Of a stretch of 64,000 bases of DNA, positions 34,762 to 42,637 are shown one piece after another. Source of the DNA: Rubrivirga sp. SAORIC476 (GTDB lineage Bacteria > Bacteroidota > Rhodothermia > Rhodothermales > Rubricoccaceae). The notes beneath the pieces are model-generated. The model ran no database searches. It saw only the letters and a program-made list of their open reading frames with translations, and was not told where the DNA came from. Every line of letters starts with the position of its first letter. Positions within the stretch are counted from its first letter, which is position 1. Location: NCBI RefSeq assembly GCF_002283555.1, contig NZ_MVOI01000003.1:980798-1044797 (forward strand), read 5' to 3'. The position numbers were made by a program, and so were the translations under genes.

Positions 34762-35217
34762 CTACCGCTCCTTCATGATGCGGTCGAGCCGACGCTTCGA
34801 CTCCCGATCGTTGATCGTCTGCCGCTTGTCGACGGTCTTCTTGCCGCGGCCAAGGGCGAACGACACCTTCGCCTTCCCCCCCTTGAAGTAGAGCTTCAGC
34901 GGGACGATGGTCATGCCCTTCTGCTCGGTCCCCTTGCGCAGCTTCTCGATCTCGGCCTTGTGGAGCAGCAGGCGCCGCATCCGCCGCGGCTCGTGGTTCG
35001 CGTACCCACCCATCTCGTAGGGCGGGATCGTGCAGTTGACCAGGTCGACCCCGGTGCGGCCGAGCTTGATGAACGCCTCGGCGAGTTGAGCCGACCCCTG
35101 GCGGAGCGACTTGACCTCCGAGCCGGTCAGCACGATGCCGGCCTCGAAGTGGTCCGTGAGCTCGAAGTCGTACCGCGCGCGGCGGTTGGTGACGATCGTC
35201 TGGATGCCGTCGGCCAT
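34762..35217 (-). CDS. smpB: SsrA-binding protein SmpB
   Basis: Binds tmRNA and delivers it to stalled ribosomes in trans-translation. 151 aa. Typical segments: RRARYDFELTDHFEAGIVLTGSEVKSLRQGSAQLAEAFIKL, the central IPPYEMGGYANHEPRRMRRLLLHKAEIEKL, and the basic C-terminal tail VSFALGRGKKTVDKRQTINDRESKRRLDRIMKER that inserts in the mRNA channel. It follows the MqnA-like gene by 108 nt. The tmRNA gene itself is not in this window. Confidence 0.96.
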   Translation of the reverse strand: MADGIQTIVTNRRARYDFELTDHFEAGIVLTGSEVKSLRQGSAQLAEAFIKLGRTGVDLVNCTIPPYEMGGYANHEPRRMRRLLLHKAEIEKLRKGTEQKGMTIVPLKLYFKGGKAKVSFALGRGKKTVDKRQTINDRESKRRLDRIMKER

Positions 35218-35325: not shown

Positions 35326-36090
35326 CTACGCGTCCTCGTCCTCCTCGTCGTCGTCCGGGTCGGAGGGCAGCTCCAGGTACGGAATCGGCGGGACCTCGGA
35401 GAGGGTGCCGGTCGCGAAGAGGTAGTCCGCGAGCTGGTCGAGGCCGTCGGTGGCGTAGCCGTCGAGCGTCAGCTGGTAGGCGCCCACGCCGTCGTGGAAG
35501 AGGGCTTCGTTGACCGGTGCCTCCTGCGCCGCGGCGCGGAGCCGAAGCCCGTCGACGGCGCTCAGCGTGCCCTCCAGCGCGGCGAGCAGGCCCCACGGGT
35601 ACGGGCGGAGCGTCAGGTCGGTCCACTCCTGGCCGGGGTCCAGCACGAAGGCGTTCGACGGGACCTCGTCCTCGTAGTCGACCAGCGCCGCCGAGGAGGT
35701 CCGCAGCACGTCTGCGAGCGGCGTGGCGGGATCGCTCAGGGCGAACGCGGCCGTCGAGCCGTAGTGCTCGCGCAGCACGAGCTGGGTGAGGAGCGCCTCC
35801 TGCGCGTCGCGCGGGTCGAAGGCGATCGTCTCGATGGCATCCAGCTGACTACCGACGACCAGCCGCCGACGGGGGCTGCGCTCGCCGGCGAGCACGATGC
35901 CGGGGACCACTTCCAGGCCCGTGTATCCACGCAGCACGTCCAGCGTCGGAACAAGCGCGAGGTCCGCGCCGCCACTGTCGAGCGCCGGGCGCGCCTCGTG
36001 CGGCTCGATCTCCACCACCTCGGTCACGAGGTCCGCCAGAGCGGACGCGAGGGCCCGGGCGGGCGGGACAGGCCAGATGGCGAGACGCAT
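35326..36090 (-). CDS. Diverged MqnA/MqnD-family (periplasmic-binding-fold) protein
   Basis: 254 aa without signal peptide. The layout MRLAIWPVPPARAL, LDSGGADLALVPTLDVLRGYTGLEVVPGIVLAGERSPRRRLVV, IETIAFDPRDAQEALLTQLVL and EWTDLTLRPYPWGLLAAL follows MqnA/MqnD, the futalosine-route menaquinone enzymes. However, the usual N-terminal YxNxxPL segment is missing and the tail is acidic (DPDDDEEDEDA). The genome also encodes the classical Men route in this window, so a role in menaquinone synthesis is doubtful. It is embedded between rplS and smpB on the same strand. Most likely a repurposed paralogue; ligand unknown. Confidence 0.6.
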   Translation of the reverse strand: MRLAIWPVPPARALASALADLVTEVVEIEPHEARPALDSGGADLALVPTLDVLRGYTGLEVVPGIVLAGERSPRRRLVVGSQLDAIETIAFDPRDAQEALLTQLVLREHYGSTAAFALSDPATPLADVLRTSSAALVDYEDEVPSNAFVLDPGQEWTDLTLRPYPWGLLAALEGTLSAVDGLRLRAAAQEAPVNEALFHDGVGAYQLTLDGYATDGLDQLADYLFATGTLSEVPPIPYLELPSDPDDDEEDEDA

Positions 36091-36171: not shown

Positions 36172-36525
36172 TTACTTGCGGCGACGCTCGGTGATGCGGG
36201 CCGCCTTGCCGCGGAGGCCGCGGAGGTAGTAGAGCTTCGCCCGGCGGACGCGGCCGTAGCGGACCACCTCCAACTTGGCGATGCGCGGGCTCGCGAACGG
36301 GAAGATGCGCTCCACGCCCACGTTGCCCGAAATCTTGCGGACCGTGAACGACTCGGCCACGCCGCCGTTCTGGATCGCGATCACGACGCCCTCGAAGAGC
36401 TGGATGCGCTCCTTGTCGCCCTCGATCACGCGCACGTGAACGCGGACGGTGTCGCCGGCGGCGAAAGTGGGAATGTCGTCGCGGAGCTGGGTGGCCTCCA
36501 CGAGGCCCATGAGGTCGGTCGCCAT
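36172..36525 (-). CDS. rplS: 50S ribosomal protein L19
   Basis: 117 aa from ATG 36525 ([50 protein letters not shown]). The rest is diagnostic: [59 protein letters not shown]19 sits at the 30S-50S interface. An in-frame ATG at 36561 would add a non-homologous leader and is not used. The gene ends the rpsP-rimM-trmD-rplS set, in the order conserved across bacteria. Confidence 0.97.
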
Positions 36526-36622
36526 GATCGGTTCGGTCTGGGTTGGGTGCGCGCCAAACATGTCGCGGGCGCGAACAGGGAAGGTAGGGAGCGGCTCGGG
36601 CCAAACGCGGCCCTGGCGCCGT

Positions 36623-37333
36623 CTACGGGGATTCTTCGCCCGCCGCGTCCGCGTCGGGCAGGAGGTCGGGTCGGCGGGTGCGGGTGCGGTCGAGCCGCTG
36701 CTCCTCGCGCCACGCCAGAATGGCCCCGTGGTCGCCCGAGCGAAGCACGTCGGGCACGTCGAGGCCGCGGAACGACGCCGGGCGCGTGTAGCTGGGCGCG
36801 TCCAGCAGGCCGTCCTGGAACGAGTCGCTGAGCGCCGAGCCCGCGTCGCCGAGCACGCCCGGCACCAGCCGCGCGATCGCGTCGATCAGGATCAGCGCCG
36901 GGAGTTCGCCGCCGGACAGCACGAAGTCGCCGACGGAGATCTCGCGCGTGACGAGCACGTCGCGGACCCGCTGGTCGATGTTCTTGTAGTGACCGGCGAT
37001 CAGCAGTAGCCGACCGGTCAGCGACAGCTGGTTGGCCATCGGCTGATCCAGCGTCTCGCCGTCGGGGGTCAGGAAGATGACCTCGTCGTACGGGCCGTGC
37101 GCTTCGGTCAGCGCCTCGACGCAGGCGAACAGCGGCTCGGGCTTGAGCACCATCCCCCCCATCCCGCCGTACGGGATGTCGTCGATCTGCCGATGCTTGC
37201 CCGGCGCCCAGTCGCGGAGGTCGTGGACCGCCACCTCGACGAGCCCCTTGTCCTGGGCCCGCTTCAAGATGGAGTGCTCCAGCGGACTCCGGACGAGGTC
37301 GGGCAGCGCGGTGACGAGGTCGAATCGGATCAT
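36623..37333 (-). CDS. trmD: tRNA (guanine37-N1)-methyltransferase
   Basis: Methylates G37 of tRNAs that read CNN/CGG codons, preventing frameshifting. 236 aa with SPOUT trefoil-knot motifs: [87 protein letters not shown] and [22 protein letters not shown]. The C-terminal ~25 residues ([21 protein letters not shown]) extend the usual fold. The leader just before ATG 37333 contains 7-bp repeats. Confidence 0.97.
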
Positions 37334-37408: not shown

Positions 37409-37963
37409 CTACTCGTCGAACAGCCCCTCGGGCGGGCGGACGTAGAGGCGACGCGCGGCGAGATCCAGGCGGACCACGAACTCTTCCACGTCGGGCAGCA
37501 GCACCTGGCTCTTGCCGGGCCGGTCGATGGCGAAGAGGAGTTGCGAGCCGTCGTAGAGGTCGCTCACCGTGCCGAAGGGCTCGTCCGCCTCGGTGCCGTC
37601 CTCGGCCACCTCGACCACGTCGAGGCCGATCAGGTCGTGGAGGTAGGCCTGCCCCTCGTCGAGCGCGGGCAGGTCGTCGGGGTCAGCGAAGAGTTGCTCG
37701 TTGCGGAGCGCCTCGGCGGCCTCCAGCGAGTCGACCCCCTCCAGCGACAGCAGCACGACCGTGCGCCCCTTCGGGTACTGGAAGCGGACGCCCTCCACGA
37801 CCACCGGCCGCGCCTCGGCCTCGGAGGCGCCGAGGTAGAGGGTCTCGAGGTCGGCGAACCGCTGCGGGTCGTCGGTCTCGGGCACCACCTTCATCTCGCC
37901 GCGGACCCCGTGGGTCTTGCCTACGCGGCCCATCAGGAGCAGTCGGTCGGGGTCGATGGCCAT
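37409..37963 (-). CDS. rimM: Ribosome maturation factor RimM
   Basis: Helps 30S maturation around protein S19 and the 16S 3' domain. 184 aa from ATG 37963: RLLLMGRVGKTHGVRGEMKVVPETDDPQRF, a typical RimM N-terminus; the PRC-barrel part has EALRNEQLFADPDDLPALDEGQAYLHDLIGLDVVE and GKSQVLLPDVEEFVVRLDLAARRLYV. An upstream in-frame ATG (38008) adds a basic stretch and is less likely. It sits between rpsP (76 nt away) and trmD (75 nt away) as in most bacteria. Confidence 0.95.
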   Translation of the reverse strand: MAIDPDRLLLMGRVGKTHGVRGEMKVVPETDDPQRFADLETLYLGASEAEARPVVVEGVRFQYPKGRTVVLLSLEGVDSLEAAEALRNEQLFADPDDLPALDEGQAYLHDLIGLDVVEVAEDGTEADEPFGTVSDLYDGSQLLFAIDRPGKSQVLLPDVEEFVVRLDLAARRLYVRPPEGLFDE

Positions 37964-38039
37964 CGGATCGTCGGAGAGGCTCAGAAAAAACGGGCGGGAC
38001 CGGCGCATGGCCGACCCCGCCCGGAGGGAGCGTGCGAGG

Positions 38040-39146
38040 CTACGCCTTGAGGGACTCGACGTAGGCGTCGAAGCCCTCCGTGTCGTCCTTGGCGAGGAAG
38101 CCCGCCTGGGTCGGCCAGGTCTCCTCGTTGCCCGCGGTCGTGGACCCGGCCTCGGTGATGATCTCCTGGAGGCGCTCCACGGTCGTCTCGGCGAGCGCCG
38201 CGAACGTCGTGATGCCCGCGCTGGCGAGGATCTCCGAGTACTTCGGGCCGATGCCGTTGACGGTGGTCAGCTTGTCGGCCTCGGAAGCGGGGGCCTCCTC
38301 GGCAGCGGGAGCCTCCTCGACGGCCGGGGCGTCCTCGGCGGCAGCGGCGTCGGTCTGGTCGGCGACCTCCCCGCCCGTCTCGTCGGCCACGGCCTCCGGG
38401 GTCTCGGCCTCGACGGCGGGCTGCTCCTCGGCGGCGTCCGGGGCTTCCTCGGCAACGGCCTCGGGGGTCGCCTCTGCGACGGCCTCCTCGGCGGCTTCGG
38501 GCGTCTCGTCCGGGGCGGCCTCGGCGACCGGCTCCTCGGCGGGTGCCTCCTCGGCCGCGGTCTCCTCGGCAGCCGGGGTGGCGTCGGCAGCCTCCGTGAG
38601 GGCCTCCGAGTCGGCGGCGGCGGCGGCGGCCTCGGCGCGGGCGGCCTCGGCGGCGGCGCGCTCCTCGGCCTCGGCGGCCTCGCGCTGGGCCTGGAGTTCG
38701 GCCTCGCGCTCGGCGCGGGCCTTGGCGAGCTCGGCGGCGCGCTCCTTGGCGGCGGCCTTCTCGGCCTCCAGCGCCTCGGCGCGGCGCTCGGCGCGCGTCT
38801 TCTTGCCGGTCGAGGCGGCCTTCTCGGCGCGACGCGCCTTGAACTCCTCCACGGCCGTCTCGATCTCCTCGGCGGACGCACCCGCGCGAGTCATCGACCA
38901 GCGCATGAGGATGCCCTCCTTCTGGAGCAGGTTGCGGACCGTGTCGGACGGCTGGGCGCCCTGGCCGAGCCAGTACAGGATGCGGTCGGCGTTGAACTTG
39001 ACGCGCGCGGGCTCAGCGACGGGCTCGTAGCGGCCGAGGTCCTCGATGAAGCGACCATCGCGGGGCGAACGGGCGTCGGTAGCGACGAGGCCGAAGACGG
39101 GATGCTGCTTCCGCCCCATGCGGCGGAATCGGAGCTTGACGGACAT
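38040..39146 (-). CDS. rpsP: 30S ribosomal protein S16 with coiled-coil, acidic linker and HhH extension
   Basis: The first ~85 residues are normal S16 (MSVKLRFRRMGRKQHPVFGLVATDARSPRDGRFIEDLGRYEP, ADRILYWLGQGAQPSDTVRNLLQKEGI), but the protein is 368 aa against the usual 80-110. Residues ~95-180 form a highly charged, Ala-rich coiled coil with basic patches. Residues 180-290 are an Ala/Glu/Pro-rich acidic linker. Residues 290-368 are a helix-hairpin-helix module (LTTVNGIGPKYSEILASAGITTFAALAE) ending TWPTQAGFLAKDDTEGFDAYVESL, a module type also appended to ribosomal protein L21 in Bacteroidota. The extension has no stop or compositional break, so it is not a frameshift artefact. Confidence 0.93.
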   Translation of the reverse strand: MSVKLRFRRMGRKQHPVFGLVATDARSPRDGRFIEDLGRYEPVAEPARVKFNADRILYWLGQGAQPSDTVRNLLQKEGILMRWSMTRAGASAEEIETAVEEFKARRAEKAASTGKKTRAERRAEALEAEKAAAKERAAELAKARAEREAELQAQREAAEAEERAAAEAARAEAAAAAADSEALTEAADATPAAEETAAEEAPAEEPVAEAAPDETPEAAEEAVAEATPEAVAEEAPDAAEEQPAVEAETPEAVADETGGEVADQTDAAAAEDAPAVEEAPAAEEAPASEADKLTTVNGIGPKYSEILASAGITTFAALAETTVERLQEIITEAGSTTAGNEETWPTQAGFLAKDDTEGFDAYVESLKA

Positions 39147-39242: not shown

Positions 39243-40595
39243 CTAGCGGCCCGCCAGGAGTTGGCTTGCGTCGACGGGACGGCCCTTGCCCTGGAGCTTG
39301 GACATCGTCTTCATCATCTTCTTCATCTCGCGGAACTGCTTCAGGAGCGCGTTCACGTCCTGCACCTCCATGCCGGCGCCCTTGGCGATGCGACGGCGGC
39401 GCGAGCCGTTGATCTGCTCCGGCGCCGCCCGCTCGAAGGGCGTCATCGACTGGATGAGCGCCTCGATGTGGCGGAAGGCGTCGTCGTCGACGTCGATGGC
39501 CTTGATTTGCTTGCCGACGCCGGGGATCATGCCCAGGAGGTCCTTCAGGGACCCCATGTTCTTGATCTTCTGGAGCTGGTCGTAGAAGTCCTGGAGGTCG
39601 AAGTCCTGCGTCCGGAACTTGCGCTGCAGCTTCTCGGCCTCCTCGGCGTCGAACTGCTCCTGCGCCTTCTCGACGAACGACACCACGTCGCCCATGCCGA
39701 GGATGCGCTGCGCCATCCGGTCGGGATAGAACTCCGTCAGCGCGTCGAGCTTCTCGCCGGTGCCGGCGAACTTGATCGGCTTCTCGACGACGCTGCGGAT
39801 CGAGAGCGCGGCCCCGCCACGCGTGTCGCCGTCCAGCTTCGTCAGCACGACGCCGTCGATGTCGAGGCGGTCGTTGAACGCCTTGGCCGTGTTGACCGCG
39901 TCTTGGCCCGTCATCGCGTCGACGACGAACAGGATCTCGTCGGGCTCGGTGGCGGCCTTGATCGCGACCACCTCGTCCATCATCGCCTCGTCCACGTGCA
40001 GGCGACCGGCGGTGTCGATGATGACGGTGTCGCGGCCCATCCGCTTCGCCTCGGCGACGGCCTTGCGGGCCACGTCGACGGCATCCTTGAGCGGGACGCC
40101 GTCCTCGCCGCGGATCGAGAAGACGGGCACCTTGACCTGGGCCGCGAGCGTCTCCAGCTGGTCGACGGCCGCCGGGCGGTACACGTCGGCCGCGGCGACC
40201 ATCGGGCTGCGGCCCTTCGACTTCAGGAAGTGCGCCAGCTTGCCGACGAAGGTGGTCTTGCCCGCGCCCTGGAGGCCCGCCACCAGAATCACCGTCGGCG
40301 GCTTCTTGGCCTGGTTGAGGTCCACCTGCACGTCGCCGAGCAGGTACACCAGCTCGTCGTAGACGTGCTTGACGAACTGCTGGCCGGGGTTGACAGCCTG
40401 AAGGACCTTCTCGTCGGTCACGTGCGCCTTCACCTTGTTGGTGAAGTCCTTCGCGACCTGGTAGTTGACGTCAGCGTCGAGGAGAGCGCGGCGGACCTCG
40501 CGCATCGTCTCGGCGATGTTGAGGTCGTTGATGCGCCCCTCGCCCTTCACGTTCTTGAGGGCGGCGTCGAGCTTGTCGGACAGCGTATCGAACAT
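39243..40595 (-). CDS. ffh: Signal recognition particle protein Ffh (SRP54)
   Basis: GTPase that delivers signal-bearing ribosomes to the membrane. 450 aa from ATG 40595 (MFDTLSDKLDAALKNVKGEGRI). N domain 1-95; G domain motifs GLQGAGKTTFVGKLA (G1), DVYRPAAVDQL, DTAGRLHVDE (G3), TKLDGDTRGGAALS (G4) and KFAGTGEKLDALTEFYPDRMAQRILGMGDV (G5). The M domain is Met-rich with the RNA-binding GSRRRRIAKGAGMEVQDVNALLKQF. It heads the ffh-rpsP-rimM-trmD-rplS cluster and has a long leader with a hairpin. The ffs RNA gene is not here. Confidence 0.97.
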   Translation of the reverse strand: MFDTLSDKLDAALKNVKGEGRINDLNIAETMREVRRALLDADVNYQVAKDFTNKVKAHVTDEKVLQAVNPGQQFVKHVYDELVYLLGDVQVDLNQAKKPPTVILVAGLQGAGKTTFVGKLAHFLKSKGRSPMVAAADVYRPAAVDQLETLAAQVKVPVFSIRGEDGVPLKDAVDVARKAVAEAKRMGRDTVIIDTAGRLHVDEAMMDEVVAIKAATEPDEILFVVDAMTGQDAVNTAKAFNDRLDIDGVVLTKLDGDTRGGAALSIRSVVEKPIKFAGTGEKLDALTEFYPDRMAQRILGMGDVVSFVEKAQEQFDAEEAEKLQRKFRTQDFDLQDFYDQLQKIKNMGSLKDLLGMIPGVGKQIKAIDVDDDAFRHIEALIQSMTPFERAAPEQINGSRRRRIAKGAGMEVQDVNALLKQFREMKKMMKTMSKLQGKGRPVDASQLLAGR

Positions 40596-40633
40596 TCGGA
40601 GGTGCCGGGTGGGACGGGAGGGGTCACAGCGAA

Positions 40634-40650
40634 TGCCAGGGAATCTGGCA
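40634..40650. other. Perfect inverted repeat (hairpin) in the ffh leader
   Basis: TGCCAG (40634-40639) and CTGGCA (40645-40650) can form a 6-bp stem with a 5-nt loop, 38 nt above the ffh start on the minus strand. With the promoter at 40747-40740 it would be inside the 5' UTR. Confidence 0.45.
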
Positions 40651-40739
40651 GGCCGCGCAGGCGGGGCGGGGTCGCGGGGTGCCGAAGCGTCCACCGGTGC
40701 GGCCGTAGCCCTGCCCGGGTGTCCGGGACGAGGCGACGA

Positions 40740-40747
40740 CAAAGGTA
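40740..40747 (-). promoter_or_regulatory. Perfect -7 element (TACCTTTG) for the ffh cluster
   Basis: Minus-strand TACCTTTG fits TAnnTTTG exactly and lies 144 nt upstream of ATG 40595, giving a leader of about 140 nt. Confidence 0.5.
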
Positions 40748-40860
40748 GGGAGCCCGCCCCCCGGAGCCAGTGAAGGGCAGGTGGATCCGGTGGTGGATGA
40801 AAATGGCCTTTCGGAGAAGGGCATGACGGGACAGATTGCGGTCTCGCTCCTGTGTCCCGC

Positions 40861-41331
40861 ATGCCTCTCCTGCCCCGCCTCGGCGTCGCCGCCGCCCTGC
40901 TCGGCCTCATGCCCCTGCTCGGCTCGACCGGGTGCGACGTCTCGGGCGACCTGGCCTGCACCGAGATCGGCTGCTCGGACGGCTACACCGTGTCACTCGT
41001 CGCCGCCGATCGCTTCCCGGACGGCGTCTACGAGATCGCGATCAACGGCGACAACACGCCCGAGGGGTGCCGGTTCGAGGTCGTGGACGGGCGCCTGCTC
41101 GACGACGAGACCTGCAACGCCGCCTACGGCATCGGCCCCACGTTCCCCACGCCCGAGGCGGTCGGCATCACCTACCCGACGATCACGTCCGAGATCGAGA
41201 TCGTCGTCTCGCGGGACGGGGCGGTGATCGAGCGCCTCGCGACCACGCCGGTGTACGAGACGATCCAGCCCAACGGCCCGGACTGTGACCCCGCCTGTCG
41301 GGTCGCGGGCGCCGAGTTCTTCGTGGACTGA
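40861..41331 (+). CDS. Cysteine-rich lipoprotein of unknown function, 156 aa
   Basis: MPLLPRLGVAAALLGLMPLLGSTGC carries a lipobox-like GSTGC, followed by DVSGDLACTEIGCSDGYTVSLVAADRFPDG. Besides the lipidated Cys there are six others (ACTEIGC, GCRFEV, ETCNAAYG, DCDPACR), suggesting disulfides and a periplasmic or surface position. A strand-rich region ITYPTITSEIEIVVSRDGAVIERLATTPVYETIQPNG follows. No family recognised. A GTG three codons upstream (40852) is an alternative start. It is divergent from ffh. Confidence 0.68.
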   Translation: MPLLPRLGVAAALLGLMPLLGSTGCDVSGDLACTEIGCSDGYTVSLVAADRFPDGVYEIAINGDNTPEGCRFEVVDGRLLDDETCNAAYGIGPTFPTPEAVGITYPTITSEIEIVVSRDGAVIERLATTPVYETIQPNGPDCDPACRVAGAEFFVD

Positions 41332-41366
41332 GCGCCGGATACCGTCCGCGGGCCGGGCGCTCGCCG

Positions 41367-41374
41367 TACCCTTC
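41367..41374 (+). promoter_or_regulatory. Putative -7-like element (TACCCTTC) touching the start of the dioxygenase-family gene
   Basis: TACCCTTC ends 3 nt before ATG 41378 (context CTTCGGCATG), almost the same layout as at 11325 before the sensor kinase (TTTCGGCGTG). Confidence 0.3.
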
Positions 41375-41377
41375 GGC

Positions 41378-42637
41378 ATGGACCGCGACCCCTGGTGGGC
41401 CTTCGCCCTCGACCCCGACACCCGCGCCGACCTGGACGCGAACCGCCTCCGCGCCGCCGACGGCACGCCGCTCGTCAACCCGCCCGGTCCGGACGGACGT
41501 CTGGGCCTCGACTACGCCGGCTACCTCGGCCTCGGCGCGCTGCTCGGCGCGGGCACCCCGGCGTCGTCGGTGCCCGACGAGCGGGCGTTTGTGATCGTCC
41601 ACCAGTTGTGCGAGGTCGTCTTCAAGCAGATGACGTTCGACCTGGCCGTCGTCACGGCGACGTTCGAGGCGCTCCTCGCGCGGCCCGAGGCGGAGCGGAC
41701 GGCGCTGGCCCTGGCCGAGGGCGAGGTGGACCAGGACTCGGACGCGGCGGCCTTCTGGCGACCGGCCATCACGGCCTCGAACCGCCTCCGCCACGCGGCC
41801 CGCCGCCTCCTGCCCCCCATCATGGAGCTGATGGGCACCGGCGCGGCCGACGACGTGCTGTTCTCGCGCGTCGAGTTCGGGCTGTTCCGCGAGCACCTCG
41901 TCCCGTCGTCCGGCTTCCAGGCGGCGCACCTGCGGCTGATTCAGCGGGCGCTGGGCAAGGGGCCTGTGCTCGACCTGCGCGTCTTCCCCGGCGACACGTT
42001 CAGCCGCCACTACACGGGCTCGCCGTGCGGCCACGTGGCGCTGGCCGACCCGGTGGTCCTGCGGGGCGGGGCCGAGTCGGCCTCCCCCTCTCCGTCGTCG
42101 CCGGAGCATCAGGCCGCGCGTCTGGACGGCGCCGCGCACGCGCTGCTCGCCAGCCTCCCCCGCCTCGGCGCCGACCTGCCGCCGCCGCCCTCGGTCCGCC
42201 GCATCCACGCCGACGACGTGGACCGCGCCGTGGACCGCTTCCGCGCCACGCTCGGCCTGGCGGCCGACACCGCGCCCGACCGCGCCCACGCCGCGCAGGC
42301 CGTCGAGGCGTTCCGCTCCGACCTGGACGCCGCGGCGTCCGCCGAGAACGCGCGGCGCGACGAGATGACGACGGCCCGGCAGGGCGCCTACTACCTGCAG
42401 GCCCGCGCACCGAAAAGCGCCCTCGCCCACATCCTCGCCCGCGTCGTCGCCACCGACGACGCACTCCACGCGCCCTCCGACGGCACCTTCCTGACGGTCC
42501 ACCGCCGCACCGTCCGCCGCCACGTCGCCGACGACTCGGGCACGGGCGGCGGCGGGATGCCGTACCTCGTCACGAGCCAGCGCTACCTGCTGCCCCTCTT
42601 CCCCGCGCTCGCCGCCTGGCAGGATCTCGAACTGTGA
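41378..42637 (+). CDS. Tryptophan 2,3-dioxygenase-family heme protein, 419 aa
   Basis: Contains the family core LDYAGYLGLGALLGAG and DERAFVIVHQLCEVVFKQMTFDL (distal-site His75), a SSGFQAAHLRLIQRALGKG segment, and near the C-terminus FLTVHRRTVRRHV...GTGGGGMPYL. His375 stands 13 residues before GTGG, the spacing of the proximal heme ligand and substrate-binding Thr in known TDOs. The protein is ~140 residues longer than ordinary TDO because of inserts in the middle (~215-330). No other kynurenine-pathway gene is nearby, so the substrate need not be tryptophan. The stop overlaps the next start (TGATG). Confidence 0.75.
   Translation: MDRDPWWAFALDPDTRADLDANRLRAADGTPLVNPPGPDGRLGLDYAGYLGLGALLGAGTPASSVPDERAFVIVHQLCEVVFKQMTFDLAVVTATFEALLARPEAERTALALAEGEVDQDSDAAAFWRPAITASNRLRHAARRLLPPIMELMGTGAADDVLFSRVEFGLFREHLVPSSGFQAAHLRLIQRALGKGPVLDLRVFPGDTFSRHYTGSPCGHVALADPVVLRGGAESASPSPSSPEHQAARLDGAAHALLASLPRLGADLPPPPSVRRIHADDVDRAVDRFRATLGLAADTAPDRAHAAQAVEAFRSDLDAAASAENARRDEMTTARQGAYYLQARAPKSALAHILARVVATDDALHAPSDGTFLTVHRRTVRRHVADDSGTGGGGMPYLVTSQRYLLPLFPALAAWQDLEL

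Follow-up and report, generated by a model that had tools for sequence, protein, structure and literature searches.

A helix-hairpin-helix module at the end of bS16 in Rubrivirga is portable and has changed carriers among ribosomal proteins

The rpsP gene of Rubrivirga sp. SAORIC476 encodes a bS16 of 368 aa in which the ribosomal core is followed by a long tail ending in a helix-hairpin-helix (HhH) module. Is this tail real, where else does its module occur, and what might a ribosome gain from carrying it? The gene lies in a window (the whole stretch of DNA that was analyzed) of 64,000 nt, at 980,798-1,044,797 of the forward strand of contig NZ_MVOI01000003.1 (GCF_002283555.1). The features to which we refer are as follows:

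39243..40961, minus strand: ffh (SRP54), upstream neighbor of rpsP; the true start is probably inside the ORF
38040..39146, minus strand: rpsP, bS16 with C-terminal extension; ATG start, 368 aa
38898..39146, minus strand: bS16 core, residues 1-83 (Ribosomal_S16 / TIGR00002; AlphaFold pLDDT about 86-97)
38586..38897, minus strand: predicted Ala/Glu/Arg-rich helical region, residues 84-187 (helices 92-113 and 118-187; AlphaFold)
38283..38585, minus strand: predicted disordered Ala/Glu/Pro linker, residues 188-288 (charge and AlphaFold)
38043..38282, minus strand: portable HhH module, residues 289-368 (Pfam, alignments, fold, dN/dS)
38160..38273, minus strand: helix-hairpin-helix part of the module, residues 292-329 (HHH_5 match; GIGPK hairpin)
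38043..38129, minus strand: C-terminal part of the module, residues 340-368 (NEETWxxQAxxLA...; outside HHH_5 coverage)
37409..38008, minus strand: rimM, downstream neighbor of rpsP in the canonical operon
36623..37333, minus strand: trmD, operon neighbor of rpsP
36172..36561, minus strand: rplS (bL19), operon neighbor of rpsP

The neighbors stand in the usual order around rpsP, ffh-rpsP-rimM-trmD-rplS, which confirms the identity of the gene. After rplS, in the same direction, come smpB and a menaquinone-biosynthesis (VitK2_biosynth) gene (34762-35217 and 35326-36090, minus strand), and a tryptophan 2,3-dioxygenase-like protein is encoded at 41285-42637 on the plus strand, with a best Pfam stretch that covers residues 74-129 only. 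The rpsP product matches Ribosomal_S16 at residues 9-67 (E 2e-23; PF00886 82 bits, curated cut-off 27) and TIGR00002 with 103 bits (cut-off 45), and a single PF00886 match in the genome indicates that it is the only S16. A sequence-only reading of this DNA had already reported a 368-residue S16 with a long tail, and the ORF, the Pfam matches, the operon order, and the relatives described below all bear this out.

The tail consists of a rod, a string, and a folded end. An AlphaFold model built with nine S16 sequences has a confident core, a helix at 92-113, and a single straight helix at 118-187 (pLDDT 91-98 to about residue 180), followed by disorder to about residue 296 and then by short helices up to the C-terminus. 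The sequence-only reading had placed a coiled coil at residues 95-180. Residues 118-178 are, however, 48% Ala and 44% Glu/Lys/Arg with only 5% bulky hydrophobics and no heptad pattern, which rules out a classical coiled coil; an Ala-rich single α-helix fits better for the modeled 118-187 segment. An excess of i to i+4 salt bridges, the sign of an ER/K helix, was not significant in this helix. The rod comprises about 70 residues and measures about 105 Å, and the linker, about 100 residues, has a contour length of about 390 Å. The net charge over residues 179-288 is −37, with no Lys or Arg. The charged long helix, the acidic linker, and the HhH end described previously thus hold up under AlphaFold, charge, and Pfam.

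The helical region by itself is a familiar feature: relatives' S16 proteins have counterpart extensions, and long S16 helices are common across the phylum and in solved Bacteroidota ribosomes. The extended Bacteroidota bS16 model (NCBIfam NF011094; PDB 7jil, 9i5v), a core with a long Ala/Glu/Lys helix, matches residues 1-178 of our protein. Unlike our protein, bS16 of that type stops where the helix ends and lacks both the long acidic linker and the HhH module. A different acidic tail is seen in another family of the order, where one S16 (L031, genome G027) closes with a series of near-identical DDSDE repeats.

The module at the end of the linker matches HHH_5 (PF14520) at residues 292-329 (E 5e-9, 37 bits, curated cut-off 27) and DUF4332 (PF14229) at residues 293-347 (E 7e-6, 26.7 bits, curated cut-off 23.2), and it may belong to COG3743. 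Its second part reads NEETWxxQAxxLA...xxYvexL. In the carrier alignments, W58, Q61, and A62 are invariant, and the ExW..QA segment of other tails is present in the S16 module. Folded alone from a single sequence, the S16 tail gave six helices at low confidence (pLDDT 63), and a Foldseek search with this model returned no significant structural match.

Among 30 relatives, the HhH module ends S16 in seven genomes (G000, G002, G003, G005, G006, G008, and G001, where a contig end cuts the gene and the tail is retained). All seven carriers belong to one family; the S16 module is absent from genus g2 of that family (G004, G007) and from the other families of the order. Purifying selection acts on the module: its dN/dS within the genus (0.32-0.46) is close to that of the core (0.23-0.31), whereas the helix has 0.59-0.77 and the linker 0.45-0.73. 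Because the tail is common to the genomes of the genus and family and is under purifying selection, it is neither a chance product nor an assembly error, and a frameshift fusion is rejected on the same grounds; a decaying read-through would be expected to look different. The survey of relatives that had been proposed as a check came out in favor of the tail. When a genome-contig collection was scanned with the full-length S16, none of the 21 S16 genes recovered had the HhH, and module scans of viral collections gave almost no matches.

The sequence-only reading had also linked the module to Bacteroidota L21. A profile search shows that the same module does occur on Bacteroidota L21, yet the L21 of this genome ends without an HhH, which rules out a tail common to its S16 and L21. 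The second carrier is instead uL16: a search of the genome with the tail alone gave S16 first and uL16 (44% identity) second, followed by a LapA-like membrane protein with a divergent HhH. The only two strong carriers in G000 are thus both ribosomal proteins, a result with a chance probability of about 2e-4 for 55 ribosomal genes among 4000. Each of the nine genomes of the family has the uL16 module, which the other families lack.

We extended the profile scan to 114 genomes of the order and 395 of the phylum and read the matches. The full C-terminal module is found on seven ribosomal proteins of both subunits, namely bS1, uS2, bS16, uL16, bL17, bL21, and bL27, with L21 carriers inside this order as well (L127, L165). 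For L16, S2, L27, L17, and L21, an NCBIfam match to one example per carrier confirmed the name; bS1 and the ActC-like and carbohydrate-binding-like carriers were recognized from sequence and are named on that assumption. Non-ribosomal carriers in the phylum are short transmembrane proteins, carbohydrate-binding-like proteins, and an ActC/NrfD-like membrane subunit. Two genomes with a module at the C-terminus of bS1 (L200 and L201, in G258 and G170) also have it on bL27, on the ActC/NrfD-like subunit, and on transmembrane proteins with two tandem copies. Small AMPK-CBM-like (glycogen-binding-like) proteins also end in the module (L186, L190, L191, L206), and among the carrier groups only theirs has a net charge above zero, about +6.5 per 85 aa.

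Beyond the phylum, alphaproteobacterial L21 and NuoE end in a related variant. Three tandem modules end RpoC (β′) in two planctomycete genomes, G474 (a Pirellulaceae MAG; L272, L276, L280) and G480 (a Mariniblastus MAG; L273, L277, L281), and in the order of G474 this arrangement is limited to 1 of 97 genomes. We named these L21, NuoE, and β′ carriers by recognition and presume the names to be correct. The module is therefore not special to S16; it is portable, sits on seven ribosomal proteins, and changes carriers.

The changes can be followed in a tree of 71 modules, rebuilt without long branches, in which the modules are short and inner branches weak. The 20 S16, L16, and L17 modules of this lineage group in a single clade (98/90), apart from the 51 others, and the uS2 copies cluster with bL21 copies of another family (95/95); copying from one ribosomal gene to another would produce both groupings. 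In a six-protein species tree, family f10 is sister to this family (98/100), within which the genera pair as (g1,g2) and (g3,g4). Placed on this tree, the carriers are L17 only in f10; L17, L16, and S16 in g4; L16 and S16 in g3 and in g1, the genus of the window; and L16 only in g2. The S16, L16, and L17 copies thus share an origin and their carriers have changed, as observed in two families only and hence from few independent events. The bL17 proteins of g1 and g2 (L255, L259, L266, L270) have no HhH and retain a conserved terminal peptide, HPDxxQGA...TGEPxP...R, which comes after the module in bL17 of G006 and f10. This pattern fits loss of the module in place from g1 and g2 bL17, the alternative being independent insertion.

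Several known systems resemble this arrangement in part. The bL21 with a C-terminal HhH (NCBIfam NF008915/NF008916, PRK12278) resembles S16 in having a C-terminal module of the same kind behind a flexible linker, and differs in that its carrier is L21; the S16 tail matches this model at residues 259-353 (E 2e-8) with 34 bits, far under the cut-off of 193. The uS2 with a C-terminal HhH (NCBIfam NF008966, PRK12311) is a small-subunit carrier of a related module, to which the S16 match is weak (22 bits). The best PDB sequence matches are the Dinoroseobacter RC-LH1 protein-O (8yy9 chain O, E 3e-11) and NuoE (9wqv chain a, E 5e-8), tails of alphaproteobacterial membrane complexes with the motif RVSRDxWVxQA where ours has NEETWxxQA. 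The protein-O tail has a flexible linker and is invisible in the cryo-EM map, and its function has been described as obscure (PMC12079452). The NCBIfam "sunset domain" variants of S2 and L17 (NF051451, NF051448) are another case of a domain appended to more than one ribosomal protein; their matches stop short of the model ends, and the two domains are probably different.

A module-profile search of the PDB found no ribosomal chain better than the HhH of uS13 itself, and a literature search, with most subscription journals outside its scope, found neither the module on ribosomal proteins nor the "sunset domain." The NCBIfam L21 and S2 models and the protein-O and NuoE tails are already known. 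For the S16, L16, L17, L27, and S1 carriers and for the carrier switching we found no description, which we take as weak evidence that they are new.

What, then, would the module do? We put at about even chances the reading that it is a portable interaction domain, displayed on a stalk, by which the ribosome is tethered to some other component of the cell, a protein being the likeliest. Tethers are usually built this way, with a folded and constrained domain at the end of a long disordered string. On S16, a rod followed by a disordered acidic linker would let the module reach far from the 30S body and search a large volume. As carriers lie on both subunits and change over time, position does not appear to be the point; what would be required is that the ribosome carries the module, at whichever site. 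In this lineage, the module has sat on bL17, uL16, and bS16 and was copied among these genes. We infer that the module binds something, that its target is a protein and not nucleic acid, and that tethering is the benefit. The earlier suggestion that the tail reaches from the 30S to RNA, DNA, or another protein accordingly stands as the best reading of its reach, with its "RNA, DNA" part less likely here on account of acidity, the retained GIGPK lysine notwithstanding.

Candidate partners may include the HhH-like C-terminal domain of the RNA polymerase α subunit, an HhH-module membrane protein, or other copies of the module. The first is bound by NusA AR2, an acidic double-HhH that also binds SuhB (PMC6614801). 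AR2 and our module are both acidic C-terminal HhH domains, with AR2 sitting on a transcription factor. Their likeness is only a hint, with no significant match in sequence or fold (HMM 19 bits, E 0.014; Foldseek E 3.8 on the pLDDT-63 model). AR2 is a precedent showing that a domain of this kind can bind proteins, not evidence of homology.

We weighed four other explanations against the tether. That the module binds nucleic acid is unlikely in our estimate, although much about it invites the idea: the HHH_5 and DUF4332 matches, the triple copy on RNA polymerase β′, and a Halomonas PHA synthase with an H3TH (COG3743) match at the place where a relative has a histone-H1-like one (PMC8686332). The GIGPK lysine, typical of DNA-binding HhH motifs, also speaks against a protein target, being kept in 5 of 6 S16 proteins and in nearly all other carriers; it is lost, however, from uL16 and from the bL17 of this lineage. 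Nucleic acid is a less likely target in this lineage because of the charge of the linker (−37), of the S16 module (about −9 over the last 80 residues), and of the uL16 module (−15); the bL17 module is strongly acidic as well. The charges of DNA-binding HhH domains encoded in this genome span +5.5 to −5.9 per 85 aa, so that mild acidity by itself excludes nothing. We rate as rather improbable a self-association of the kind known from SAM domains, in which copies on different ribosomes, or on a ribosome and a membrane-anchored HhH protein, would bring about clustering or recruitment to the membrane. Up to three copies per ribosome (G006) and weak, non-significant matches to the SAM-domain fold are consistent with it, as is the phylum-wide co-occurrence of ribosomal and membrane-anchored copies (14 of 24 genomes compared to 15 of 371), a contrast that shared ancestry confounds. 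In this family, however, the membrane copies belong to another subtype with only a divergent HhH, and both partners are net acidic, which would oppose binding.

An improbable alternative is that the tail aids assembly or stability of its own ribosome, folding back on rRNA or neighboring proteins at a fixed site. In C. acnes ribosomes, the bS16 extension is docked on uS4 and bridges the lower body and the shoulder, close to where mRNA enters (PMC10085706). By analogy, the S16 helix may run to uS4 here too, and the wide occurrence of such helices in the phylum speaks for this alternative. A disordered linker of about 100 residues nevertheless separates helix from module, and the diversity of carriers, seven on both subunits, disfavors any site-specific ribosomal role. 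We consider it more doubtful still that the module is a nearly neutral passenger, spread by recombination between Ala/Glu-rich tails and tolerated with no ribosomal role. Repeated gains and losses and unrelated carriers such as NuoE and the ActC-like and carbohydrate-binding-like proteins would suit a passenger, but purifying selection on the module and conservation of the uL16 copy in 9 of 9 family members argue against it. So does the retention of at least one tailed ribosomal protein in every genome whose carriers were read, a persistence that could reflect slow decay instead of selection.

Building on the tether reading, we tentatively suggest, as a possibility to which we give less weight than to the tether itself, that ribosomes are labeled by a docking domain whose placement is free. 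Selection would keep the label on the ribosome and not on one protein, and the label would hop (between L17, L16, and S16 here and between L21 and S2 in another family), forming a common adaptor that ties ribosomes to RNA polymerase, to the membrane, or to other ribosomes.

The interest of this locus is raised by the portable module and its changing carriers, beyond S16 itself. Lineage-specific ribosomal extensions are usually studied protein by protein, and here one folded module is found on seven. Because it stays on the ribosome while its carrier changes, presence on the ribosome can be told apart from occupancy of a given site. Respiratory, photosynthetic, and, rarely, RNA polymerase subunits end in the same module, and one answer would therefore explain several orphan tails.
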